From Gloeobacter violaceus PCC 7421 (GTDB lineage Bacteria > Cyanobacteriota > Cyanobacteriia > Gloeobacterales > Gloeobacteraceae), in the NCBI RefSeq assembly GCF_000011385.1, contig NC_005125.1, positions 3,720,001 to 3,784,000 of the forward strand: 64,000 nucleotides of DNA, in the 5' to 3' direction. Positions 33,639-50,382 of the stretch are shown here, piece by piece. How positions within the stretch are numbered: the first letter of the stretch is position 1; each line of letters opens with the position of its first letter. Both the position numbers and the translations under genes were made by a program. Under the pieces are notes generated by a model, which saw only the letters and a program-made list of their open reading frames with translations, was not told where the DNA came from and searched no databases.

Positions 33639-33801
33639 TGTATACAAAAATCAGAACCTCGACACTTTCGCTGAAGCTAAACTCAAAGCTCTACAGGAAG
33701 GTGCCCGGTGGTACGCCTGCCGCAGAGAGCAGCGCGGGCCTCGGCGAAGATGTTCAGGCATGGTAGTCCTCCGGCCGCAATAATTGCGAGGCCAGCTATC
33801 T

Positions 33802-34236
33802 TCAAGAATTGCCGGCTCTGGCCATTGCGACCTCTTCTGCAGTCTGCGGCGATGCACTTTTCTGGATGAGTTCGATCTTGTAGCCGTCGGGATCTTCCAG
33901 AAATGCAATCACCGTGCTGCCGTGCTGCATCGGGCCGGGTTGGCGCACGACTTTGCCGCCCCGGGCGGTCAGTTCGCTGCAGGTCCGGTAAATGTCCTCG
34001 ACACCGAGGGCGATGTGGCCGAAGGCGTCGCCCAGGTCGTAATGGTCGCGCTCCCAGTTGTGGGTCAGTTCGATCACCGCGCTGTCCGCCTCGCTGCCGT
34101 AGCCCACGAAGGCGAGGGTAAATTTGCCGTCGGGGTAGTCTTTTTGGCGCAGCAGTTTCATGCCCAATACATCGCAGTAGAAAGCCTTGGAAGCCTCCAG
34201 ATCGCGCACCCGCAGCATCGTGTGAAGAATCCGCAC
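33802..34236 (-). CDS. gloA: Lactoylglutathione lyase (glyoxalase I)
   Basis: 144 residues from a GTG at 34236 that sits behind an excellent AAGGAGGA site; the longer frame to 34323 is rejected. RILHTMLRVRDLEASKAFYCDVLGMKLLR, YPDGKFTLAFVGYG, AVIELTHNWER, FGHIALGVEDIY and FLEDPDGYKIELIQ carry the metal ligands of Ni/Zn glyoxalase I. Detoxifies methylglyoxal. A C-terminal tail of ~15 residues is variable. Confidence 0.93.
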   Translation of the reverse strand: MRILHTMLRVRDLEASKAFYCDVLGMKLLRQKDYPDGKFTLAFVGYGSEADSAVIELTHNWERDHYDLGDAFGHIALGVEDIYRTCSELTARGGKVVRQPGPMQHGSTVIAFLEDPDGYKIELIQKSASPQTAEEVAMARAGNS

Positions 34237-34570
34237 GGTCGTTCCTCCTTCAAAGGCCCCTCCAGTGTACCTTCCGGCCCCAAGCGGGCAGGCGCTCAAG
34301 GCAACCTGCGCCTCCGGAAGCACAGGGTATTTTCTTGGCCCCAGCGACCCGCTGTTTCAAGACGGATCCCGCCAACCGGGTGCAGTACACTGGCAGCAAG
34401 GCTTCTGGCGATCGGCACAGGCTTTCATCATTGCAAACTTTTCGAGCATCGCCTTTACTTGATGATTAACCCCGCTGTCTGTTACCGAGCGTTCATCTCC
34501 TCACAGTTACGACGCGACCTTGGCTATGGCCTGGGTAGGGTAAAGCTTTAGCAACGGGAGGAACGCAGCT
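34237..34570. other. 334-base upstream region of the hybrid kinase gene
   Basis: Divergent control region between gloA and the CheB-CheR kinase. An AGGAGGA site serves gloA on the left; GGGAGG serves the kinase on the right. A weak inverted pair TCATCA..TGATGA lies near 34426-34465. No gene or known riboswitch is seen. Confidence 0.4.
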
Positions 34571-37500
34571 GTGGACGTGGGCCGAGAACCTGAGCAACAG
34601 CAGCCTGGCGACCTTGATCTGTTTGCGGTGGTCGGGATCGGTGCGTCTGCCGGGGGATTGGAAGCTTTCACCCAGTTGCTGAGCCACCTGCCAAACCATA
34701 CGGGCATGGCGTTTGTGCTGGTTCAGCACCTGGATCCGAGCCATCGCAGCCTGCTTGCTGAATTGCTGTCGAGGACGACCCAGCTGCCGGTGGTCGAGGT
34801 GCACGATGGGATGACCCTGGAAGCGGATCGCGTCTATGTGATTCCGCCCAATACCCAGATGACCCTGGCGCGCGGGGCGCTGCAACTGGCACCCCGCGAG
34901 AAGGTCCAGGGCCGGTACATGCCGATCGACGCTTTTTTCCGTTCGCTGGCACAGGAGCGGGGCAGCCGGGCGATCGGTGTTGTGCTCTCAGGAAGCGATG
35001 GCGACGGTGCCCTGGGATTGGAGGCGATCAAGGCGGCCGGCGGGATTACCTTTGCCCAGTGCGAGGCATCGGCACAGTTCAGCGACATGCCCCACAGGGC
35101 TGCGGCGACCGGTGTCGACTTCATCCTGCCCCCGCAGGCGATTGCCGAGGAACTGGTCAAAATCAGCGCTCATCCTTACGTGATCCCGGCCCGATCAAAC
35201 ATGCCGGCGGACGAGGAGGCGCTGCCCTCCGTCTTCGCGCTGCTGCAGGCCGCCACGGGAGCCGACTTTACGTACTACAAGCGCACCACTTTGCTGCGGC
35301 GGCTGCGGCGGCGGATGGTTCTGCACAAGCTGGAGCGCCTGGTGGACTACGTTCGTCACCTGCAGGACAACCCCGGCGAGGTGCAGACGCTGTACGAGGA
35401 GATCCTGATTTCGGTCACCAGTTTCTTTCGAGATCCCGATGTCTTCGCAGCGCTGCAGGAAAAAGTCTTTGCGGGCATCTGCCAGGGCAAGGCGGCCGGT
35501 TCGCCCATCCGGGTCTGGGTGCCAGGCTGTGCCACTGGTGAAGAAGTCTATTCGATCGCCATCACCTTGCTGGAATGGCTGGGACCGCAAGCGCACGAGA
35601 CCCCCATCCAGATCTTCGGCACCGACATCAGCGAAGCTGCCGTCGAAAAGGCCCGACTCGGTATCTACAAAGAAGAGGCGGTCGCGAATGTCTCACCTGG
35701 CCGCCTTCGACAATTCTTTGTGCAGGTGGCGGCCGGCTATCAGATCGGCAAGTCGGTGCGCGAGCTGTGCGTCTTCGCGAGACAAAACCTGAGCAGCGAT
35801 CCACCCTTCTCCAACATGGATCTGATCAGCTGCCGCAACGTGCTGATTTATTTGGAACCGACTCTGCAAAAGCGGGTGCTGCCGATTTTTCACTACAGCC
35901 TCAAGCCCACGGGCTTCCTGGTGCTGGGTAGCTCGGAGAGCACAGGAGAATTCACAGACCTGTTTGCCGTGGTGGACAAAAAGCACAAGATCTACACCAG
36001 AACGGCGGCTCCCAGCCGCTTGAGCTTTGACTTCGTCACCGGCGACTATCGCCTCGCCCGGGCGAGGCGCGGTGGGCTGACCGGCGAGGCCACCTGGGCC
36101 GGTTTGAATATCCAGCAACAAGCCGACCGGATCGTCTTGAACCGCTATGCCCCGGCCGGGGTGCTGACGAACGACCGGCTCGAAATCCTGCAATTTCGCG
36201 GAGAGACCGGTGCCTACTTGCGCCCCGCCCCGGGCGAGCCGAGTTTCAACTTGCTGAAGATGGCCCGGCCCGGCTTGCTGCCGGAACTGCACACGGCCAT
36301 CTACCAGGCGAAAAGCCAGGAAGGTGCGGTCGAGAAAGCGGGTTTACGGGTCGAAGGCAACGACGGACCGAGGCACATTCGTATCGTAGTGATCGCTTTT
36401 AAGGTTCCCCCGGCCGACGAGCGCTATTTTCTGGTGCTGTTCGAAACGATGGACCCGGTCATGCCTGCCGCACCGGAAGCCCGCCATCGGCACGACAGTG
36501 ACCAGAGGATCGATCCGGAGCCTGAAATCAGCCGGCTCCGGCAGGAGCTGACGATCGTCAGGCAGGAGTTGGTCCACACCCAGGCCTATCTGCAATCGAT
36601 CATCGAAGAACAGGAGGCCACCAACCAGTCCCTGACGACGGCCAACGAGGAGATCCTTTCGAGCAACGAGGAGTTGCAGAGCACCAACGAGGAACTGCAA
36701 ACCGCCAAAGAAGAGATCCAGTCGGCCAACGAAGAATTGCGCACGACCAACGAGGAACTGCAAAGCCGCAATCTCGAAGCCCGTCAAGTCAACAACGACC
36801 TGCTGAATCTGCTCAGCAACGTCAACATTCCGATTTTGATGCTGACCAACGACCTGCGCATCCGTCGCTTCACCCCGGCGGCCCAGAGACTTTTCAACTT
36901 GATCGCGACCGACGTCGGGCGATCGCTCAGCGACATCCGGCTCAACTTCCACGCCCCCGATCTGGAGGAGTCGCTGCTGGAGGTGATCGACACCCTCAGC
37001 CCCAAAGAACGGGAGGTTCAGGATCTCGAAGGGTACTGGTATCTTTTGCGCATCCGGCCCTACCGGACGGTCGACCATCAGATCGATGGGGTGGTGCTGG
37101 CGCTGGTGGATATTGACGCCCTCAAAAACAGCGCGCAGTTGCTCGAAGCGGCCCGGATTTACGCCGAGAGCATCGTCGAGACGGTGCGGGGACCGCTGTT
37201 GGTGCTCGATTCCGACCTGCGGGTAAGAACGGCGAACCGGGCTTTTTATCAAACTTTCCAGACAGTACCGGCGCAGACGGAGGGGCAACGGCTCTTTGAG
37301 CTGGCGGGTGGTCAGTGGGACATCCCGCGGCTGCGCCTGATGCTCGAGAACCTGCTGCTCCACAATGCCCAACTCCTCGATTACGAGGTGGAGCATGACT
37401 TTGAGAACGTCGGCCGTCGGGTCATGCTGCTCAATGCCCAGGAGATTTTGGCGCCTGAGCAGGACCGCTTGATCTTGTTGGCCCTCGAAGACATCACCGA

Positions 37501-38248
37501 GCAAAAGCGGACGCAGCAGAGTCAACAGATGGCCCTGCAGAAGGAGTACGAACTCAACGAACTAAAATCGCGCTTGATTGCGATGACTTCCCACGAATTT
37601 CGCACGCCCCTCAGCACGATCATCCTCTCGACCCAACTGCTTTCCAGTGACAGTCCCCACCAATCTGCCCAGAAGCGGCTCAAGCAACAGCAGCGCATCG
37701 AGCGGGCCATCGAGCAGATGACCGACCTGCTGGACGGCATCTTGAGTATCGGCCAGGCCGAAATCGACCAAGTGCAGATCCGGCGGGTGCCGCTCGATCT
37801 CGAAAGTTTCTGCCGTCAACTCGTCGAGGAAATGCAGGCGGCGCCGGGCGGCGCCCACCGGCCCGCTTTTGAGAGCGCCGGACAGTGCCGGGGCGCCAAC
37901 CTGGATGCCGTCATGCTCCGACAGATCCTCAGCAACCTGCTCACCAACGCGCTCAAGTATTCCGCACCGGACAGCACAGTCCGTCTGCAGCTCGCCTGCC
38001 GGGATGGGCAGGCCGTCTTCACGGTCGTCGATGAGGGCATCGGCATCGCTGTCGAGGATCAAGAACGGCTGTTCGAGCCCTTCTACCGGGGGCGCAATGT
38101 CGCCAACATTCCCGGCTCCGGCCTCGGTCTTGCCATCGTCAGGAGGCTGGTCGAGCTGTTAAAGGGGCGGCTCGCCTTCGAAAGCCGTCCCCAGCAAGGA
38201 ACCACGTTCACCGTTGCCCTGCCCCTCGAGGAGCCGGCCGATGACTGA
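34571..38248 (+). CDS. CheB-CheR-PAS hybrid histidine kinase
   Basis: 1225 residues from a GTG with GGGAGG upstream. Order: CheB methylesterase (~18-200; Ser26 in GASAGG, His53 in QHLDPSH, aspartate in SGSDGDGALG). CheR methyltransferase follows (~215-475; TSFFRDPDVF, WVPGCATGEEVYSIA, FGTDISEAAVEKAR, DLISCRNVLIYLE). Then a long coiled coil (~650-740, many NEELQ/NEEL heptads) and two PAS-like domains (~745-985). The C-terminus has HisKA with His1008 in TSHEFRTP and HATPase (NLLTNALKYS, DEGIGI, GSGLGLAI). No receiver of its own. The response regulator gene overlaps its end by 8 bases, so they form one two-component pair. Presumably cytoplasmic; no membrane helices. Confidence 0.92.
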   Translation: MDVGREPEQQQPGDLDLFAVVGIGASAGGLEAFTQLLSHLPNHTGMAFVLVQHLDPSHRSLLAELLSRTTQLPVVEVHDGMTLEADRVYVIPPNTQMTLARGALQLAPREKVQGRYMPIDAFFRSLAQERGSRAIGVVLSGSDGDGALGLEAIKAAGGITFAQCEASAQFSDMPHRAAATGVDFILPPQAIAEELVKISAHPYVIPARSNMPADEEALPSVFALLQAATGADFTYYKRTTLLRRLRRRMVLHKLERLVDYVRHLQDNPGEVQTLYEEILISVTSFFRDPDVFAALQEKVFAGICQGKAAGSPIRVWVPGCATGEEVYSIAITLLEWLGPQAHETPIQIFGTDISEAAVEKARLGIYKEEAVANVSPGRLRQFFVQVAAGYQIGKSVRELCVFARQNLSSDPPFSNMDLISCRNVLIYLEPTLQKRVLPIFHYSLKPTGFLVLGSSESTGEFTDLFAVVDKKHKIYTRTAAPSRLSFDFVTGDYRLARARRGGLTGEATWAGLNIQQQADRIVLNRYAPAGVLTNDRLEILQFRGETGAYLRPAPGEPSFNLLKMARPGLLPELHTAIYQAKSQEGAVEKAGLRVEGNDGPRHIRIVVIAFKVPPADERYFLVLFETMDPVMPAAPEARHRHDSDQRIDPEPEISRLRQELTIVRQELVHTQAYLQSIIEEQEATNQSLTTANEEILSSNEELQSTNEELQTAKEEIQSANEELRTTNEELQSRNLEARQVNNDLLNLLSNVNIPILMLTNDLRIRRFTPAAQRLFNLIATDVGRSLSDIRLNFHAPDLEESLLEVIDTLSPKEREVQDLEGYWYLLRIRPYRTVDHQIDGVVLALVDIDALKNSAQLLEAARIYAESIVETVRGPLLVLDSDLRVRTANRAFYQTFQTVPAQTEGQRLFELAGGQWDIPRLRLMLENLLLHNAQLLDYEVEHDFENVGRRVMLLNAQEILAPEQDRLILLALEDITEQKRTQQSQQMALQKEYELNELKSRLIAMTSHEFRTPLSTIILSTQLLSSDSPHQSAQKRLKQQQRIERAIEQMTDLLDGILSIGQAEIDQVQIRRVPLDLESFCRQLVEEMQAAPGGAHRPAFESAGQCRGANLDAVMLRQILSNLLTNALKYSAPDSTVRLQLACRDGQAVFTVVDEGIGIAVEDQERLFEPFYRGRNVANIPGSGLGLAIVRRLVELLKGRLAFESRPQQGTTFTVALPLEEPADD

Positions 38249-39215
38249 CATTCTCGTGATCGAAGATGATGCCCTCGTCCGGGAGAGCGTCCTGGAAGTG
38301 CTCGAAGCCCAGGGCTTTCGGGCCATCGGCGCCCAGAACGGACAGGTGGGCCTTCGCCTCGCCGAGGAGCACCTGCCGGACTTGATCCTCTGCGATATCC
38401 TGATGCCCGGCCTCGACGGCTACGCGGTGCTGGCCGCGCTGTCGGACAATCCGCTCACCCAGGGGATTCCCTTTGTTTTTCTGACGGCGAGGGTGGCGAA
38501 GCTGAATTGGCGGCAGGCGATGGCCATGGGTGCCGACGATTATCTGCCCAAGCCCTTTACTGCCGAGGAGTTGCTGGAGACTGTCGCCATCCGGCTCAAA
38601 AAGCACGCGCTGCTTCGCTCCCTCCCAGATACTTTCAACACAAAAAAACCGGCGGCCCCACCGCAGCATTCCATCTCCCATTTTGCTCCCAACCAGGGCA
38701 TTCCCCTGCACCCGGACAGTTTCTGGCAGGTACACCACGGCCTGGTGAAGCTCAGCGCCGCCCTCGTCGAGGGTGAGCCGGTGGTGGTGGGCTGGGCCGT
38801 TGCGCCGATGCTCTTCGGGACCGATGCGGTCGAATCGGAGGTGTATTACCAGGCCTCAGCCGTGGGCCGGGTCGAACTTGCAAAATTCTCGGCCCAGGAG
38901 GTGGCCGCATCGCCCCATATGGCCCAAGCCCTGCTCTCCCGCCTGTATCAGAGCAATGCCTTGCTGGCTGTCTGTGGCCAACGGCGGGCCGATGACCGGC
39001 TGCGGGGGTTGTTGCTGCTGCTCAAACGGGAGGTGGGGGAGCCCTGCAGGGGGGGCACGCGGCTGCGGGTCCGCTTCACCCACCAGGACCTGGCCAATAC
39101 GATCGGAACGGCCCGCGCCACGGTCACCTTATTGCTGAACCGGTTCAAACAATGCGGCTGGATTGCCGTCGAGAGCGATCGCCGCCTGTGCATCTCGGAT
39201 GCGCTCCCGCACTGA
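38241..39215 (+). CDS. Response regulator with REC and CRP-type effector domains
   Basis: 324 residues. N-terminal receiver: acidic pocket IEDD, phosphoacceptor Asp52 in LILCDILMPGLDG, conserved Lys in DDYLPKPF. A linker and a sensor-like mid domain follow (~150-250). The C-terminal Crp-family helix-turn-helix is VRFTHQDLANTIGTARATVTLLLNRFKQCGWI. So it is a phosphorylation-controlled transcription factor built on a CRP/FNR chassis. It overlaps the kinase gene by 8 bases and is surely its cognate partner. Targets unknown. Confidence 0.9.
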   Translation: MTDILVIEDDALVRESVLEVLEAQGFRAIGAQNGQVGLRLAEEHLPDLILCDILMPGLDGYAVLAALSDNPLTQGIPFVFLTARVAKLNWRQAMAMGADDYLPKPFTAEELLETVAIRLKKHALLRSLPDTFNTKKPAAPPQHSISHFAPNQGIPLHPDSFWQVHHGLVKLSAALVEGEPVVVGWAVAPMLFGTDAVESEVYYQASAVGRVELAKFSAQEVAASPHMAQALLSRLYQSNALLAVCGQRRADDRLRGLLLLLKREVGEPCRGGTRLRVRFTHQDLANTIGTARATVTLLLNRFKQCGWIAVESDRRLCISDALPH

Positions 39216-39447
39216 GCGGTGCGCCATGTTGCCCAGCAACCTCCTGAATTCTGCCGTCGCGTTAGTTGACGACAACCTGCCAATAACAACTTTTGTATCA
39301 TCTGGACAGGCTTCTGGGAGCTTCCCCCTTCCATTGTCCCTACAGGCGTTCCTACTGAGGGCGTAGTCCACAGTTCAGTTCATTGTTAGAAAATTTTACA
39401 CACTCGCCCTGGCTCCTTTTTTCCTCAAAGAAGGCGCGGTGTATTGT

Positions 39448-39472
39448 GCATCACCCCTGCTTTGAGTGATGC
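39448..39472 (+). promoter_or_regulatory. 5'-leader hairpin before the 39510 gene
   Basis: GCATCAC (39448-39454) and GTGATGC (39466-39472) form a perfect 7-bp stem with an 11-base loop, about 40 bases before the start codon. It has no T-run. It could be an operator palindrome or an RNA structure. Confidence 0.3.
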
Positions 39473-39509
39473 GGACTGTTGACAGGCGTTCACAGAGGAA
39501 ATATCAACC

Positions 39510-39737
39510 ATGGGATCCATGAAGTACAGAGGTTGGACCATCGCCACCAGCAAGGCGAGCGAGGGTTTCGTGGCGTTGCTTACCGATCCCGACGGTAAAC
39601 GATTTGACGAACCGCTCGTTTTCTTGGCGAGTCCGGAGCTGGCCGAACTTTATGCCCGAAATTTCATCAACTGGTACATCGATCTTGAGGAGGAGCGTCG
39701 GATGACAGAAGGTTCGATGCGCACATCTATGATCTAG
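39510..39737 (+). CDS. Small protein of unknown function
   Basis: 75 residues with a good GAGGAAA site 9 bases before the ATG. YRGWTIATSKASEGFVALLTDPDGKRF followed by an acidic helix (FLASPELAELYARNFINWYIDLEEERR) resembles many small cyanobacterial proteins with a beta-hairpin plus helix. No name can be assigned. Confidence 0.65.
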   Translation: MGSMKYRGWTIATSKASEGFVALLTDPDGKRFDEPLVFLASPELAELYARNFINWYIDLEEERRMTEGSMRTSMI

Positions 39738-39838
39738 CGCCGGGCCTCTCCAAACGGCCGGCTCCACGCCCCCGCATCAATCCATTGGAGCCTACAAATC
39801 GGCTTCAGATGTTTACAAACAATTGTTGGAGTTTAACC

Positions 39839-40153
39839 ATGTACGGACAGACAAGCAATACGTCGGACGCCCGGGATGGCGATTGGTGGTTGGAAGTGAC
39901 CACAGACGAGCCCTTCTTGTACGCATTCGGTCCCTTTGACAGTCCGGAAGAAGCTGCGCAATCCGTCGGCAGGTACGTCCCCGACCTTACGTCCGAGGGG
40001 TGGCAGGTGGTGCGCCAGAAGGTGCTCCGGCAAGAACATCTCTCCGACCAGTTGCCTCCCAGATTCAAGGGTGTACTGCTTCAGGCGGCCCTTTTCAGAG
40101 GCTGGAAATGCCGTGGCGCAAGAAGACGACAAGCGACACGAGGTTTAAAATAA
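39839..40153 (+). CDS. DUF1816-like protein
   Basis: 104 residues from the ATG at 39839 with GGAG upstream. WWLEVTTDEPFLYAFGPFDSPEEAAQSVGRYVPDLTSEGW matches the short DUF1816-type domain common in cyanobacteria; the C-terminal ~35 residues are basic and unusual. The previous gene ends 101 bases upstream on the same strand. Confidence 0.68.
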   Translation: MYGQTSNTSDARDGDWWLEVTTDEPFLYAFGPFDSPEEAAQSVGRYVPDLTSEGWQVVRQKVLRQEHLSDQLPPRFKGVLLQAALFRGWKCRGARRRQATRGLK

Positions 40154-40169
40154 GCCAATCAGGGTGGAA

Positions 40170-40437
40170 GTTGTGGTTTCGCGATATCGAGGGCACCCTG
40201 GCCGGCTTCTGAACGCCGCCCTTTGCGGCGGGGATCAACGTACCCGGCTACCACCTGCACTTTATCAGCGCCGATCGCAAACTCGGCGGCCACTTGCTTG
40301 AGTGCACGATCGGGCAGGTGACCGTGCAGGTGCACCACACCCCCGAGCGGCACCTGGCGGTGCCGCGCTCACCGGAATTTCAGCGGGCCGACTTGGCTGC
40401 GGACACCGGCGCGGAACTGGACCGGGCCGAGAAATAG
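40170..40437 (+). pseudogene. 3' remnant of alpha-acetolactate decarboxylase (budA-like)
   Basis: The plus-strand frame reads FRDIEGTLAGF, stop, TPPFAAGINVPGYHLHFISADRKLGGHLLECTIGQ, and on to a TAG at 40435. The segment GYHLHFISADR-x3-GGH contains the three zinc histidines of acetolactate decarboxylase. The in-frame TGA at 40210-40212 stands where the family has tryptophan, and everything upstream of about residue 150 is missing. So this is a decayed C-terminal third. Base composition resembles its surroundings. Confidence 0.78.
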
Positions 40438-40565
40438 TTCCCCCATCGCCGAAAATTTCCCAATTTATGTAACACAACACACAAAAAGCGTGGACAGCCT
40501 GTGGATGCTCTCCTAGGTTGGAAATTGTTCGCTCAGAACGGTTTCTTTTTGGAGGTGCATTGGCC

Positions 40566-41276
40566 ATGGTTACGAACGTTGTGCGGGCGCTGAGGCAGGG
40601 TGCTTGGATCGCCGGTTTCGTTGCCGTTGGGCAGTTGGCGTCGATGGCTGCCGTTTCTGCCGATCCGGTTCAACTGCGGTTGCAGCCGCAGCGGCCGACG
40701 GCGGCGGTCAACCCGATCGATTTCGGAGCCAACCGCTATATCCTGACCGACGAGGCATTCGCTCAGGCAGTAAGCGAGTATCTGCAGGGCCGGCCCGATC
40801 GGGCAGTGGTGCAATTTGGCGAAGCGGTGCGGCTCGATCCGAAGGACGGACCGGCCTTCAACAACCGGGCCAACGCCCGCACGGCCCTGGGCGATTCCCA
40901 GGGGGCGCTCGCCGACTACGACCGGGCGGTGGAACTGGACCCAGGCTACGCATTTATCTACTTCAACCGGGGAATCACGAAGAGCGGTCTTGGAGATCGG
41001 CAGGGGGCGCTCGCCGACTACGATCAGGCCCTCGAGATCGATCCGCTCAACGTGTTTGCCTACAACAACCGGGGCATTCTCCGCTATAAACTCGGCGACC
41101 GCGCCGGGTCGCTCACCGACTTCGACCGGGCGCTCAGGCTCGATCCCACCTACGCTTTTGCCTACCACAACCGCGGTATCGTGCGCTCCAAGTTGGGCGA
41201 CAGTCGCGGGGCGGAGGCCGATTCACAAAAGGCGGCGGAACTCATGGGCAAGTCGCCGCGCCGGCGGTCGGCCTGA
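40566..41276 (+). CDS. Secreted TPR-repeat protein (short)
   Basis: 236 residues from the ATG at 40566, preceded by a GGAGG site. Signal peptide (VVRALRQGAWIAGFVAVGQLASMAAVSA), then a linker and about four to five TPR units of the A.ADYD.A..LDP.YA...NRG type. A shorter relative of the protein at 20186. Probably a periplasmic adaptor. Confidence 0.82.
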   Translation: MVTNVVRALRQGAWIAGFVAVGQLASMAAVSADPVQLRLQPQRPTAAVNPIDFGANRYILTDEAFAQAVSEYLQGRPDRAVVQFGEAVRLDPKDGPAFNNRANARTALGDSQGALADYDRAVELDPGYAFIYFNRGITKSGLGDRQGALADYDQALEIDPLNVFAYNNRGILRYKLGDRAGSLTDFDRALRLDPTYAFAYHNRGIVRSKLGDSRGAEADSQKAAELMGKSPRRRSA

Positions 41277-41421
41277 AGGTCTCCTAGGCGTCGCAACGGC
41301 CAGCTCTGTGGCCAAAGTTTGTTCGATTTGTCGAGTGCTAAACCGGATATTCGACGCCTCGTTTCGTGGCCTACCTTACAGTAGAGTGGGAACTGTGGTA
41401 GCCGCGTCGAAGCACAAAAAA

Positions 41422-41868
41422 ATGGCGGCGGTTGATCCCATCAGGATCGCCGCCACCACATCCTCCCTACTTGGCTATGTGTATGGAATTAAATTGTACA
41501 GCATTCCTGGAGAATTACGGGAGTTTATTTTGAATCATTTGGCGAGTCCTACCACCCGGTACGCTACGGTAGGAAAGATCTACGTCCCGCCAGGGTCGGG
41601 CGCCCGTTCACCGAGAGGAGCGATTGTGGAGGAGGAGTTTCGTTACCAAACCGAAGACTGCGTCGTCGTTTGCCCGGAGTGCCAGGCGAGCAGCGCCGGA
41701 GATTTGCAGCCGACCCTCAAGAGGCTCGCCGGTTGTCAGAACTGCAAGCAGGACATCGACGAGGACGGCGAATTGAGCGGCGTCGGCGATGCCATTCTCA
41801 GTGCCCTGTCGCGTCGGTACGGCTCCGCGGTGGTCTGGCAGGAGTGGAAAGCGATCTCCAAACTTTGA
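41422..41868 (+). CDS. Protein with a C-terminal two-CxxC Zn ribbon, unknown function
   Basis: 148 residues from the ATG at 41422; GTGs at 41386 and 41398 are alternatives. A helical N-terminal half (IRIAATTSSLLGYVYGIKLYSIPGELREFILNHL) precedes CPECQASSAGD ... CQNCKQDIDEDGEL, a CxxC pair set that should hold zinc. No family recognised. Convergent with the zf-TFIIB gene. Confidence 0.6.
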   Translation: MAAVDPIRIAATTSSLLGYVYGIKLYSIPGELREFILNHLASPTTRYATVGKIYVPPGSGARSPRGAIVEEEFRYQTEDCVVVCPECQASSAGDLQPTLKRLAGCQNCKQDIDEDGELSGVGDAILSALSRRYGSAVVWQEWKAISKL

Positions 41869-41883
41869 TCCGGGGCATCCGGC

Positions 41884-42261
41884 TCAATCCGGCAGGATGT
41901 AGGTCACAAAAAAGTTCTTGAGGTTGGCAAGCAAGCCCTTTTCGCGCAGACGGTCGAGTTCGCCGCCGTCGAGCCAGCGCCCGCCGCAGGTGGGGCAGAC
42001 GTCCATCTGTACGTCCGCCGCCTTCACGTCGTTGACCATGTCCAACAGGGTGCCGTCGCGTGGGCAATTGAGCGGCACGATCGTCCGCCTGCCGCCCGGT
42101 CTGCCGCTGAGCTTGATCCCCTCCAGGTTTTGTTTTGCTACCAGGGCGGTCATTTCGCTCACATCGAACCAGATACCGAGGCAGTTGGGGCACTGATCGA
42201 CTTCGATGTCGTCGGATTTGACCGTCTTCAGTTCATTGTCAGTGCAGCGGGGACATTTCAT
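41884..42261 (-). CDS. zf-TFIIB domain protein
   Basis: 125 residues from the ATG at 42261. Two copies of the small zinc-ribbon (MKCPRCTDNELKTV..DDIEVDQCPNCLGIWFDVSEM and LNCPRDGTLLDMV..ADVQMDVCPTCGGRWLDGGEL) define zf-TFIIB, which appears in many bacterial genomes with unknown roles, often DNA-related. The start lies within the end of truA (23-base overlap), so it is translated with that operon. Confidence 0.88.
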   Translation of the reverse strand: MKCPRCTDNELKTVKSDDIEVDQCPNCLGIWFDVSEMTALVAKQNLEGIKLSGRPGGRRTIVPLNCPRDGTLLDMVNDVKAADVQMDVCPTCGGRWLDGGELDRLREKGLLANLKNFFVTYILPD

Positions 42262-43153
42262 GGGGCGGTCGCTCCTCTCGAGATTCCAAATCGCCATTTC
42301 CCAGTCTAGCTTCTGGCTTTTCCTGCCCAGTATGACATCGGGCAAAACCGATTCCGTTCGTCTTGAACGGATCGTCCGGGTAGCCCACCCCCACCAGACA
42401 CAGTCCCTGGGGTGGGGCGGCGTACTTGACTTGTTCGCGGTTGCCGGCCTGCCACAGACCGGCGAAGCGCTCCACACTCCAGCGCCCCGACCCCACCTCG
42501 GCCAGTGCTCCAATCAACAGGCGCATCATCCCGTACAGAAAACTGTTGGCCCGCACCCGAATCGCGATTTGCTCCCCCTCGCGGGTACACTCGGCTGTAT
42601 AGACATGGACCAGGGAGTGGGGGCGGCTGGAGCCGGCGCGGCGAAACGCCCGAAAATCGTGGTGGCCCGGCAAAGTGGCCAGGGCTGCCGCCACCGCTTC
42701 GCTGTCGAGGGGGCAATAGGGGTAGTACCAGCTCTGGGCGCGCACGAATAGGTCGGGCACGGTGCTGTTGTGGATGCAGTAGCGGTACTCACGCCACAGC
42801 GCGGTGAAGCGCGCGTGCCAGTGGTCGCTCACGTAGGCCGCCGCGCGCACGGCGATGTCGTCGGGAAGCAAGCTGTTGAGACCGCGCACCCAGGTCTCGG
42901 GGGCCAGCTTTTTGTGGGTATCAAAGTGGACGACCTGGCCGCTCGCGTGCACACCGGTGTCGGTGCGCCCCGCCGCGTGGTAGCGCACCGGATGGCGGGC
43001 GATGCGCTCGGTCGCTTCCTCCAAACACTGCTGCACTGTGCGCTGACCCGGCTGCCATTGCCAGCCAAAAAAATGTCCCCCCAGGTACTGCACCCGGAGG
43101 GCAAGGCGCGCCGGTGCGCCTTCTACGGCGCCGCCCACCGCATCCACGGACAT
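42239..43153 (-). CDS. truA: tRNA pseudouridine(38-40) synthase
   Basis: 304 residues. The catalytic aspartate lies in the AAGRTDTGVHASGQ loop; YLGGHFFGWQWQPGQRTVQQCLEEA and FLYGMMRLLIGALAEVGSGR are further TruA signatures. The start overlaps the rplQ stop by one base (TGATG), so translation is coupled to the ribosomal operon. A C-terminal extension of ~30 residues is unremarkable. Confidence 0.94.
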   Translation of the reverse strand: MSVDAVGGAVEGAPARLALRVQYLGGHFFGWQWQPGQRTVQQCLEEATERIARHPVRYHAAGRTDTGVHASGQVVHFDTHKKLAPETWVRGLNSLLPDDIAVRAAAYVSDHWHARFTALWREYRYCIHNSTVPDLFVRAQSWYYPYCPLDSEAVAAALATLPGHHDFRAFRRAGSSRPHSLVHVYTAECTREGEQIAIRVRANSFLYGMMRLLIGALAEVGSGRWSVERFAGLWQAGNREQVKYAAPPQGLCLVGVGYPDDPFKTNGIGFARCHTGQEKPEARLGNGDLESREERPPHEMSPLH

Positions 43154-43503
43154 CAGACCAGTTCGATAATCGCCATCGGGGAGTTGTCGCCGCGGCGGGC
43201 CACCGTGCGCAGGATGCGGGTGTAACCGCCGCGGCGGCTACCGTAGCGCTCCTGGGCGGCGGCGAAGACCGATTGGACCAGTTCAGGGTCGTACAAAAAT
43301 CCGCTCGCCTGGCGGCGGGCGGCCAGGGAGCCGTCCTTGGCGAGGGTGATCATCCGATCGGCCTCGGAGCGGATGACCTTGGCGCGCGCCAGGGTAGTGC
43401 TGATGCGACCGTGGCGCAGCAGTTCGGTGGTGAGGGTGCGGATAAGGGCGTCGCGCTGGTCGGCGGGGCGACCCAGTTTCGGTACGCGGCAGCGGTGTCT
43501 CAT
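43153..43503 (-). CDS. rplQ: 50S ribosomal protein L17
   Basis: 116 residues beginning [29 protein letters not shown], the universal L17 start, and ending with the [23 protein letters not shown] tail. Follows rpoA with a 2-base gap. Confidence 0.97.
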
Positions 43504-43505
43504 GG

Positions 43506-44450
43506 CTAACTCCTGGCCGGTTTGTCTTTGGGAAGGCTGAGGCCCATCTTATCCTGCAGGGCTTCGATCACCTCTTCGGCGGACTTCTGGCCGAAGTTTT
43601 TGATCTCAAGCAGGTCTTCTTCGGTGTATTCGAGCAAGTCGGCAACCGTATTGATTTGGGCGCGCTTCAGGCAATTGTAGGCACGCACCGACAGCTGCAA
43701 CTCCTCGATAGGCACCTGGCCCACGGTGTTCGGGGCGCTGCGCTGCGGTTCGGCCGGGGGCTCGAAGGTAATCTCCTGCAGGGGCCGAAGCTGGTCGACC
43801 AAGATCTTGGCTGCCTGGGAGAGCGCTTCTTGGGGAGAGAGCGAGCCGCTGGTCCAGATTTCGAGGGTGAGGCGGTCCTGCTCGACATTGGCGGCGGAGC
43901 GCTCACTCTCGACCGTCCAGTTCACCTTGCGCACGGGCATGAAGATCGCGTCGATCGACAGGTAGTCGATGGCGGCCCCGTCCTCGCTGCCGCGCTCGAT
44001 GGCGCGGTAACCCTTGCCCCGCTCGATCTGAAACTCCATCTCCAACTGGCCGTCTTCGGCGAGGGTGGCGATGTAGTGGCGCGGGTGCACCACCTGCACC
44101 TCGGTGGGCAGTTCAAGATCGGCAGCGGTGACGCGCTTGGGACCCTGCACCGCCAGTCGGCCGATCTGGATGTCGCTGGTGTAGGAGCGCAGCACCAGTT
44201 CCTTCATGTTGAGCAGGATATCGAGGACATCTTCGCGGATGCCCTTCATAGTGGCAAATTCGTGGTTGACCCCGGTGATGCGCACGGCCGTCACCGCCGT
44301 GCCTTCGAGGTTCGACAGCAGCACACGCCGGAGGGCGTTGCCCAGGGTGGTGCCCTGGCCCCGCTCGAGCGGTTCGAGCACAAATTTGCCGTACTGGCCG
44401 TTGTCGGCCTCGGTCCGCGTTTCTACGCACTCAATGGTGTATTGCGCCAT
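43506..44450 (-). CDS. rpoA: DNA-directed RNA polymerase alpha subunit
   Basis: 314 residues. N-terminal dimerisation domain ([29 protein letters not shown], the universal signature) and C-terminal domain with [48 protein letters not shown], which binds UP elements and activators. Sits between rpsD and rplQ as in the classical alpha operon. Confidence 0.97.
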
Positions 44451-44467
44451 AGCCTCTCTCCTCGCCG

Positions 44468-45088
44468 CTAGCGGGAGTAAAACTCAACAATCAACAGTTC
44501 CTGGACCGGCGTATCGATGTCCTCGCGCTCGGGAAGGGCCTTCACCGTGGCAGCGAGGGTCTCGCGGTTGGCTTCGAGCCACTTGGGAGCCTGGGGCAGG
44601 CTGGCCGCTTCGAGGGCCTCTTTGACAAAGGCGGCCGAATTGGGCATGACGGTAATCGCATCCCCCGGACGAACCCGGTAGCTCGGGATCGAGACGCGCC
44701 GGCCGTTGACGGCAAAGTGGCCGTGGTTGACCCACTGACGCGCCTGGGCGCGGGAGGTGGCAAAACCGAGGCGGTAGACGACGTTGTCAAGACGTCTCTC
44801 GAGCAATTCCAGAAACTTGGCGCCGGTGTTGCCCGTGGCGCGGCTGGCATCGGAGAAGGTGCGGCGAAATTGCTTTTCGAGCACGCCGTAGCTCCAGCGC
44901 GCTTTTTGCTTTTCTTTGAGGCGGATGGCGTATTCGCTGAGTTTTTGGCGCGCCTGGCCGTGCACGCCGGGGCGGAAATTGCGCCGTTCGATGGCGCACT
45001 TGGGCGAGGAGCAGCGAATGCCCTTGAGGTAGAGCTTCATGCCGACGGCGCGGCAAAGCTTGCAGACGGGACCGGTGTAGCGAGCCAT
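44468..45088 (-). CDS. rpsD: 30S ribosomal protein S4, zinc-binding (C+) type
   Basis: 206 residues from the ATG at 45088. Cys9, Cys12, Cys26 and Cys31 ([18 protein letters not shown] and SSPKC) form a complete zinc site, as in the Thermus/Bacillus-type S4. The S4 RNA-binding fold follows ([28 protein letters not shown]). In most cyanobacteria and plastids, to my knowledge, S4 lacks these cysteines and its gene stands alone. Here it is the C+ form embedded between rpsK and rpoA, as in the classical bacterial alpha operon. Confidence 0.95.
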
Positions 45089-45119
45089 GTTCTTTAAATA
45101 CTCGAGAACGGATGGTGGT

Positions 45120-45512
45120 TTAGACGCGGCGGCGCTTGGGCGGGCGGCAGCCGTTGTGGGGAATCGGAGTGACGTCGCGGATGAGGGTAATCTCAAGCCC
45201 CACCGCCTGCAAAGCCCGGATGGCCGTCTCCCGGCCGGCGCCGGGGCCGCTGACCATCACCTCGCACTGGCGCATGCCCGAGTCGATGGCCCGGCGGCCG
45301 GCCGATTCGGCCGCCTGCTGAGCGGCGAAGGGGGTGCCTTTTTTGGCGCCTTTGAAGCCGCTGGAGCCGGCAGACGCCCAGGAAATCACATCGCCGACGG
45401 TATCGGCAATAGTGACGATCGTGTTGTTGAACGTGGATTGAATGTGGGCCACACCACTCGGCACATTGCGCCGAACTTTCTTTTTCTGCCCGCCACGGGT
45501 TGGTTTCGCCAT
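45120..45512 (-). CDS. rpsK: 30S ribosomal protein S11
   Basis: 130 residues. [37 protein letters not shown] and the C-terminal [16 protein letters not shown] are universal S11 signatures. 31 bases before rpsD. Confidence 0.97.
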
Positions 45513-45534
45513 TGAATCGATCCTGGTTGGGGTA

Positions 45535-45918
45535 TTACTTCTTGGCGGCGGCTTTTTTCTTGCCGGCCACGGTCTTGCGCCCGCCTCGACGGGTACGGGC
45601 GTTGGTGCGGGTGCGCTGACCGCGCACGGGCAGGCCGAGGCGGTGGCGACGGCCGCGCAGGCAGCCGATATCCATCAGGCGCTTGATATTGATGTTCTCG
45701 AAGCGCCGCAGATCGCCTTCGACCTGATACTTCTGTTCGATTTCCTCGCGCAGGAGGCTGACCTGGACGTCGGTCAACTCGCGCACGCGCAGGTTGGGAT
45801 TGATGCCGGTGGACAGTAGAATTTGGGTGGCTCTGGAGGGGCCGATACCAAAGATGTAGGTGAGGGCAATTTCGACCCGTTTTTCCCGGGGAATGTCTAC
45901 GCCTGCAATACGCGCCAT
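45535..45918 (-). CDS. rpsM: 30S ribosomal protein S13
   Basis: 127 residues. [56 protein letters not shown]. The basic lysine-rich tail (KKKAAAKK) is usual. Between rpmJ and rpsK. Confidence 0.97.
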
Positions 45919-45955
45919 GGATGGATGGTTTCCTCTGGTTTGCTGATGGTGCCGC

Positions 45956-46069
45956 CTAGCCCTGCCGCTGCTTGTGCTTGGGGTTCTCGCAAATGACCAT
46001 GACCCGCCCCTTGCGGCGGATCACCCGGCACTTCTCACATATCGGTTTGACGGACGCACGGACTTTCAT
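45956..46069 (-). CDS. rpmJ: 50S ribosomal protein L36
   Basis: 37 residues: [20 protein letters not shown], then [17 protein letters not shown]. Cys11, Cys14, Cys27 and His32 form the zinc site. This is the first ribosomal gene of the visible operon, 37 bases before rpsM. Too short to be picked by length filters, but unmistakable. Confidence 0.96.
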
Positions 46070-46133
46070 AGCTGGCCGCAAATTGTGCAGATCCTAGCTT
46101 AGTGATCGACTGCGGGTACTGTCAAGGGTCGTC

Positions 46134-47630
46134 TCAACGCAGGCTGCGCAGCACGACGATCCAGCCTTCGACCGCCCGGCCTCGCTCGGTGCGCAAAATG
46201 GCCCGCTCGGTGCTCACCGCCACCAGAGCGGCGGCGGCGGCCTCCTTGTGCACATAATCGAGGGCATGGGCGTAGCGGCCGTTGGGGAGCAGGGTGTAGC
46301 CCGCTTCGCCCGCTTCGACCGAGCAAGCGAGCACGCCCCCCGGCACCAGGGTGAGGGCCGCGGCGGCGAACACGGCGGCCAGGTCGCCCACGTAGGTGAA
46401 CACATCCGCCGCGACGATCAGGTCAAAGGCGTCGTGGTGCCGCCCCAGCCACTCGGTCATCTCGCCCACCGCCAGATCGTCGTAGACGCCGCGCGCGCGC
46501 GCTTTGCCGATCATCTTGGCCGAGAGATCCATCCCCACCAACCGCTGGGCCAAAGGCCGCAAAAGCGGGCCGCAAAGCCCGGTGCCGCAGCCGAGATCGA
46601 GGACGTTCAAGAGTCCCTCGGTGTGGGGAGTGGCGGCTTGGACGGCCCCCACGAGCAGTTCGGGCGCCCGGTAGGCCAGTTCCCCGGTCAGGTGCCGGTC
46701 GAAGCGCTCGGCGTATTCATCAAAAAGAGCCGCCACGTAATCCGGGTCGGTCATGGCCGGAGTGGGAGCGCCGCCCACCGCCGCCAGGTAGTGGCGGGCC
46801 TCGGCGTAATCGGGTTTGAGGCGCAGTGCTTCGGCGTAGCACTCGGCGGCTTCGGCCAGTCGGCCCGCGTCGCGCAGGGCGTTACCCAGTCCGCAGTGGG
46901 CTTCAGCCAGAGCCGGTGCCAGTTCAACCGCCCGGCGGTGCTCCTCGATGGCCGCGTCGCCCTGGCCGCTTGCCTGCAGGGCGTGGGCCAGGTTGACGCG
47001 CGCCTCCACCAGGTCGCCTTTGATAATTAGGGCGGTGCGGTAGACAGAGATTGCCTCGGCGAGTTTTTGCTGGGAGTGCAGGAGCAGACCGAGGTTGTAG
47101 TAAGCCTCGGCAAAATCGGGTTGCAGCTGAAAAGCCCGCTTAAAACAAAGGGCGGCTTCTTCTAATTGGCCGCGCTCGCGCAGGACCACCCCGAGATTGT
47201 TGTGGGCTTCGAGGTAATCCGGTTCGAGGGCCAACGCCCGCCGGTAGGAGGCGATCGCATCATCTAGATTCCCCAGTTCGCGCTGGACCGCCCCGAGATT
47301 GTTGTGGGCTTTGACGTACTCGGGTTCGATGGCGAGGGTGCGCTGGTAGCAACCGAGCGCCCCTTCGAAGTCCCGCTGCTCCTGCAGGGCGGTCCCCAGG
47401 GCAAAGTGGGCGTCGGTATAGTAACTACGCAGCTCGATGGCGCGCTGAAAATGGTGAATGGCTTCTTCGCCCTCGCCGCGCGCCTGCAGGGCAAGCCCCA
47501 GGGCAAAGTGGGCCTCGACATAATCGGCCTGAAAGTCGAGCGCCTGGCCGTAGCGGACAATCGCTTCGGCCAGGCGTCCCTGCCGGTGCAGAACCAACCC
47601 CAGATCGAGCAGCTCCGCAGCCTGGGCCAT
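46134..47630 (-). CDS. TPR-repeat protein fused to a methyltransferase
   Basis: About 498 residues from the ATG at 47630 (ATG at 47684 is an alternative). Around nine TPR units (A.A...Y.RAL.L.PDY.EAH.NLG..L...G) fill the first ~300 residues. A class I SAM methyltransferase follows (VLDLGCGTGLCGPLLRPLAQRLVGMDLSAKMI). This TPR-methyltransferase layout is found in several bacteria; the substrate is unknown. It lies downstream of clpB on the same strand. Confidence 0.88.
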   Translation of the reverse strand: MAQAAELLDLGLVLHRQGRLAEAIVRYGQALDFQADYVEAHFALGLALQARGEGEEAIHHFQRAIELRSYYTDAHFALGTALQEQRDFEGALGCYQRTLAIEPEYVKAHNNLGAVQRELGNLDDAIASYRRALALEPDYLEAHNNLGVVLRERGQLEEAALCFKRAFQLQPDFAEAYYNLGLLLHSQQKLAEAISVYRTALIIKGDLVEARVNLAHALQASGQGDAAIEEHRRAVELAPALAEAHCGLGNALRDAGRLAEAAECYAEALRLKPDYAEARHYLAAVGGAPTPAMTDPDYVAALFDEYAERFDRHLTGELAYRAPELLVGAVQAATPHTEGLLNVLDLGCGTGLCGPLLRPLAQRLVGMDLSAKMIGKARARGVYDDLAVGEMTEWLGRHHDAFDLIVAADVFTYVGDLAAVFAAAALTLVPGGVLACSVEAGEAGYTLLPNGRYAHALDYVHKEAAAAALVAVSTERAILRTERGRAVEGWIVVLRSLR

Positions 47631-47722
47631 GGCCGTGGACGGTCGATTGTCACGGCGGGGGGGTTTGCCAAAACCTCGGGGCATTGGTGTAGACGGTGGG
47701 TACGCCGCTCTCATGGTACACA

Positions 47723-47763
47723 AGGTGTCAGGTGTCAGGTGTCAGGTAAGTTCCACCTGACAC

Positions 47764-47765
<2 letters not shown>
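47723..47765 (-). repeat. Heptamer tandem repeat folding into the clpB 3' hairpin
   Basis: AGGTGTC is repeated three times and started a fourth (47723-47747). The last 11 bases, AGGTGTCAGGT (47737-47747), pair perfectly with ACCTGACACCT (47755-47765) around AAGTTCC. The clpB stop (47764-47766) overlaps the far arm. The hairpin has no T-run, so it may act as an mRNA-end structure. The tandem copies let alternative registers of the same stem form. Confidence 0.75.

Positions 47766-50382
<2,617 letters not shown>

Follow-up and report, generated by a model that had tools for sequence, protein, structure and literature searches.

A truncated acetolactate decarboxylase pseudogene beside a sensor-kinase block in Gloeobacter violaceus PCC 7421

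The remnant and its surroundings

The stretch of Gloeobacter violaceus PCC 7421 that was analyzed (64,000 nucleotides, hereafter the window; NC_005125.1, positions 3,720,001 to 3,784,000) carries the 3′ remnant of a gene of the acetolactate decarboxylase family (PF03306), 86 codons plus a stop, next to a block of genes that includes a sensor kinase (Table 1). The frame 40171–40437 (+) reads LWFRDIEGTLAGF, a stop, TPPFAAGINVPGYHLHFISADRKLGGHLLECTIGQVTVQVHHTPERHLAVPRSPEFQRADLAADTGAELDRAEK and the final stop. Likeness to an intact relative in another genome of the same genus (G003) begins at 40177, and the two codons before it (L and W) belong to the neighboring block; a preliminary description of this DNA, which placed the start at 40170, was right about the remnant itself and seven bases early on its start.

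Table 1 Features of the decarboxylase locus, in window coordinates
Feature	Position	Strand	Basis
Glyoxalase I (lactoylglutathione lyase), left neighbor	33802..34323	-	in G003 directly beside the intact decarboxylase gene
5,835-bp block in place of 634 bp in G003	34342..40176	.	junction alignment
CheB-CheR-PAS-HisKA-HATPase sensor kinase, 1225 aa	34571..38248	+	ORF, Pfam
Response regulator with CRP-type helix-turn-helix, ORF open from 38214	38250..39215	+	ORF, Pfam
Block ORF, 75 aa, no Pfam match	39510..39737	+	ORF list, Pfam
Block ORF, DUF1816, open from 39785	39839..40153	+	ORF, Pfam
3′ remnant of third acetolactate decarboxylase gene	40177..40437	+	PF03306, alignment to G003 and 4BT2
TPR protein, right neighbor	40566..41276	+	in G003 directly after the intact decarboxylase gene

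A Pfam profile search of the genome matches PF03306 to the remnant with 86.9 bits (E = 2.9e-24), above the curated cut-off of 25 bits and far outside what chance would give; the match covers only positions 138–218 of the 219-position profile and runs across one TGA (40210–40212), which replaces a Trp codon relative to the intact G003 orthologue. A functional member of the family would have one uninterrupted frame of at least about 230 residues; the locus offers 86 codons with this stop inside. In acetolactate decarboxylase, His194, His196 and His207 are the zinc ligands, and Thr58, Glu65 and Arg145 are active-site residues. Aligned to 4BT2, whose numbering is used here, the remnant corresponds to the C-terminal third of the AlsD/BudA enzymes (PF03306, TIGR01252; 4BT2–4BT7, 5XNE, 6INB) and retains the three histidines together with the C-terminal Glu253; unlike those enzymes, it has an internal stop and lacks the N-terminal two thirds, where Thr58, Glu65 and Arg145 lay. 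The earlier account of the 3′ third of a budA-type gene, with its zinc histidines intact and a tryptophan changed to a stop, is thus borne out by the profile score, the 4BT2 alignment and the G003 comparison.

The rest of the gene was not found elsewhere in the genome, a single contig of 4,659,019 bp. When a 904-bp stretch of G003 (L033 11537–12440) was used as a query, only its positions 635–904 matched, at the remnant locus, and the 5′ part was absent from the best 40 of 66 candidates scored; the Pfam search returned no N-terminal piece of PF03306 (5/5 candidates scored). No frame restores a whole gene among the three forward frames and the ORFs of 60 aa or more. The upstream part was therefore rightly described as missing, and the reading as a remnant stands. 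The possibility that an assembly error conceals the 5′ part was rejected as well, given the single-contig genome and the empty 5′ searches.

The intact orthologue and the history of the locus

The G003 comparison provides a clear picture of what has been lost, as that genome holds a complete orthologue of 288 codons (L033 11565–12431; PF03306 match G003:C1:369742–370392) at the same place, between the same glyoxalase I and TPR genes, and differs from the remnant in being whole. It is one of three PF03306 copies in G003, where two lie in tandem and this third one is single, and it keeps all seven active-site positions that were checked. DNA identity with the remnant is 96% over the shared 270 bp, which supports the view that a complete budA-type gene once stood here. 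G003 thus has the gene whole at this position, and the window has it truncated and with an in-frame stop. Around the gene, the window matches G003 at 97.2% over 33846–34341 and at 94.6% over 40177–47997, and the junctions are sharp to the base (34341/34342 and 40176/40177); between them, 634 bp in G003 (L033 11537–12170, with the region upstream of the gene and its first 202 codons) stand against the 5,835 bp of the block. On the other side of the comparison, G003 has about 1.6 kb of small ORFs (L033 9457–11041), toxin-antitoxin-like by eye, where the window has 154 bp, and from this extra segment the decarboxylase locus looks like an insertion hot spot.

The block appears to be a self-contained segment extraneous to the decarboxylase gene, since a genome of another genus in the same family (G005) carries it as a unit: window 34579–39277 is matched there at 77% and 39876–40043 at 76%, and the 3.97 kb of G005 that precede it show no match to the window's left flank. 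A further, weak match to G005 (50 bp, 78%, E = 0.001) ends at 40178, on the right junction. The kinase and its CRP-type response regulator (34571–39215) are conserved as a unit in the genus of G005. In G003, no match to the kinase is found among the matches listed (best 40 of 183 candidates scored). The idea that the block was carried by a transposon with terminal repeats finds no support, as no repeat of at least 20 nt joins its ends (33700–40800 searched).

A second genome of the same genus (G001) shows a third state of the locus. It retains a 48-bp match to the end of the gene (88%, E = 1.2e-8), with 39 of the 48 positions within the gene, stop included, and collinear scraps of the block, matching window 35690–35728 at 95% and 39952–40050 at 82% with one gap; a 24-bp piece of window 35672–35695 lies on another G001 contig. 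By eye, both contigs end in what appears to be a single insertion sequence, and an apparently single transposase gene, which we take to be IS630-like, is split between L034 11222–11342 and L050 (about 1–115) within the block scraps. From these scraps we infer that the block once stood at this locus in the line of G001 as well. With G002 as outgroup, 55 right-flank sites place G001 with G003 (vs 25 and 7); for the left flank, G001–G003 identity is 96.3% vs 93.1–93.2%. Because G001 groups with G003 on both flanks yet has scraps of the block, the history of the locus departs from a simple tree, for which recombination and an older block are both possible explanations. Synonymous divergence between the window and G003 is 0.083 for the glyoxalase gene and 0.126 for the remnant, vs 0.188 for the TPR gene and 0.172 for truA; the lower values (Fisher p = 0.039 on pooled, rounded counts) give a weak hint of local recombination at the glyoxalase gene and the remnant. 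The third gene is unmatched in G002 (best 40 of 63 candidates scored) and in G004 and G005 (all candidates scored).

It is conceivable, though less likely than not, that the ancestor carried the block and the whole gene in a row, and that the window lineage then deleted the 5′ part of the gene and G003 lost the block, in which case the block would not have taken the place of the 5′ part. Since G001 holds block scraps while grouping with G003 on both flanks, the block may predate the three-way split; however, this history needs two separate deletions, and G003 joins the glyoxalase gene to the decarboxylase gene, with the kinase unmatched there within the scope given above.

Tandem paralogues and acetoin synthesis

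A complete budA was sought elsewhere in the genome, and two intact ALDC-family genes were found in tandem at 3.02 Mb (3,020,123–3,021,821 of G000:C1; L001 and L002, here copies A and B), encoding proteins of 294 and 293 aa; in the Pfam search (5/5 candidates scored) no others turned up beyond these and the remnant. The remnant is not a decayed tandem copy, as it is identical to the G003 third copy at 82/85 positions and to the tandem proteins at only 28/73 and 23/79, and it groups with the G003 third copy at a support of 1.0. Both tandem proteins have a hydrophobic N-terminal stretch that looks by eye like an export signal, and they are probably exported. Tandem proteins of this kind, also noted at L035 10065–11971 and L011, lack Thr58 and the Glu253 tail and, except for copy A of G001, Arg145. 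The tandem copies of the window's genome are nearly identical to those of G003 (dS 0.05–0.07), while dS between G001 and G003 is 0.65–0.67, though G001 is otherwise close to G003; this contrast hints that transfer may have replaced the tandem copies.

The preliminary description concluded that the lineage had lost acetoin synthesis, and this is unsupported as stated. Against the NCBI acetolactate decarboxylase equivalog (cut-off 180.65), copy A passes with 193.8 bits and copy B falls about two bits short with 178.5. Values of ω are 0.16 (A) and 0.04 (B) between the window's genome and G003, and the G001–G003 comparison gives 0.30 for A and 0.13 for B, which argues that both copies are selected proteins under purifying selection. 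Loss of acetoin synthesis does not follow from the remnant, because two intact genes of the family remain under such selection, and a lost pathway is unproven.

Retention of the activity is itself not assured, because Thr58, Arg145 and the tail that bears Glu253 are missing from both remaining tandem proteins. In both copies Thr58 is replaced by Ala, Arg145 is Glu in copy A and Gln in copy B, and both chains stop short of Glu253, while the zinc histidines and Glu65 are kept. Judged by its G003 orthologue, the lost copy would have been the only one in this strain with the complete catalytic set, and it is possible that the activity went with it. Two other cyanobacterial proteins of the third-copy type keep all seven positions. 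Among the best 80 of 351 relatives, Thr58 is kept in 79, Glu65 in 79, Arg145 in 78, each histidine in 79 and Glu253 in 77, where the broken frame of L124 is counted as gaps and the Thr58 and Glu65 counts are biased by search patterns that included those two residues.

We weighed the proposal that, with the truncation, the strain was left with no acetolactate decarboxylase able to catalyze the reaction, the tandem paralogues doing something else, and regard it as a less likely alternative; under it, the earlier conclusion that acetoin formation from acetolactate was lost would be correct in effect. It draws on the three missing residues, which the G003 orthologue retains in a full set of 7/7 and which 77–79 of the 80 relatives each keep, and on the score of copy B below the cut-off. 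Weighing against it are the zinc histidines and Glu65 of the tandem copies, the Arg145 that copy A of G001 retains, the passing score of copy A, the purifying selection on both copies and the conservation counts that are partly built in by the search. The tandem copies also adjoin a zinc alcohol dehydrogenase: ADH_N and ADH_zinc_N score over their cut-offs, Glu_dehyd_C falls below its own (30.6 of 34.9 bits), and no NCBIfam dehydrogenase cut-off is reached. R-butanediol dehydrogenases have ADH_N and ADH_zinc_N, some with Glu_dehyd_C in addition, according to PMC10466699. The domain set is generic.

A more specific version, somewhat less probable still, is that the tandem proteins form a side branch of the zinc decarboxylase fold, in this analysis met solely in Gloeobacteraceae genomes, which would carry out another extracytoplasmic reaction without Thr58, Glu253 and mostly without Arg145, so that the truncation would have abolished true acetolactate decarboxylation in this strain. 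If true, the window strain and G003 would be a natural species pair without and with acetolactate decarboxylation.

Decay of the remnant and of the family in cyanobacteria

Taken as sequence, the stretch is best read as a dead gene, the 86 codons left at the 3′ end of a third acetolactate decarboxylase gene of the canonical type, a reading to which we give a probability of about 0.93. Its promoter, start and most catalytic residues would have been removed in one step or a few, and because these are gone the remnant would make nothing useful and would drift away. Relative to G003, and leaving the TGA aside, it has 3.5 nonsynonymous and 7.5 synonymous changes (ω = 0.15), while ω of the neighboring genes is 0.14–0.17; relaxed selection thus does not yet appear in the remnant, though the counts are small and most of the divergence may predate the truncation. 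Continued use, whether as a short peptide or as a 70-aa ORF fused from the block (GTG at 40000 to the TGA), is very improbable: the frame is indeed open from 40000 to the TGA and ω against the intact gene is low, but just 11 decarboxylase codons fall within the fused ORF, the first in-frame ATG, GTG or TTG past the TGA is by eye a TTG at 40294 that leaves 47 codons, and nearly all of the remnant stretch is gone in G001.

The family is patchy in cyanobacteria, as 22 of 386 genomes in a phylum sample were matched; a separate PF03306 search matched 6 of 39 genomes and 3 of 14 control genomes (the window's own genome is counted in the 386 and in the 39). Two genomes (G295 and G395) hold C-terminal pieces only, from profile positions 135–142 on (L153, L154, L156), like the remnant in extent and unlike it in lineage and context; traces in other frames, seen by eye, suggest decay by frameshift. 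In G215 the gene is split over two frames, again by eye, and its decay seems to have happened more than once within the phylum. A route from pyruvate to acetoin that includes ALDC is described for Black Sea Synechococcus in an excerpt of PMC6776005. The words 'acetolactate' and 'acetoin' are absent from the main text, as excerpted, of a paper on Gloeobacteraceae carbon metabolism (PMC13237429), and PMC12525769, likewise in excerpt, merely names the species. Literature searches on acetolactate decarboxylase together with Gloeobacter, and on the residue names, returned nothing related, and a search on the enzyme's structure listed no paper on its own structure.

A remnant alone is no proof of pathway loss where paralogues persist, as they do here. 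The feature is a genuine, ordinary pseudogene with ample documentation. Across three genomes the gene is found in three states, whole in G003, truncated in the window and almost gone in G001, which adds another documented gene loss to those in this early-branching genus of cyanobacteria.
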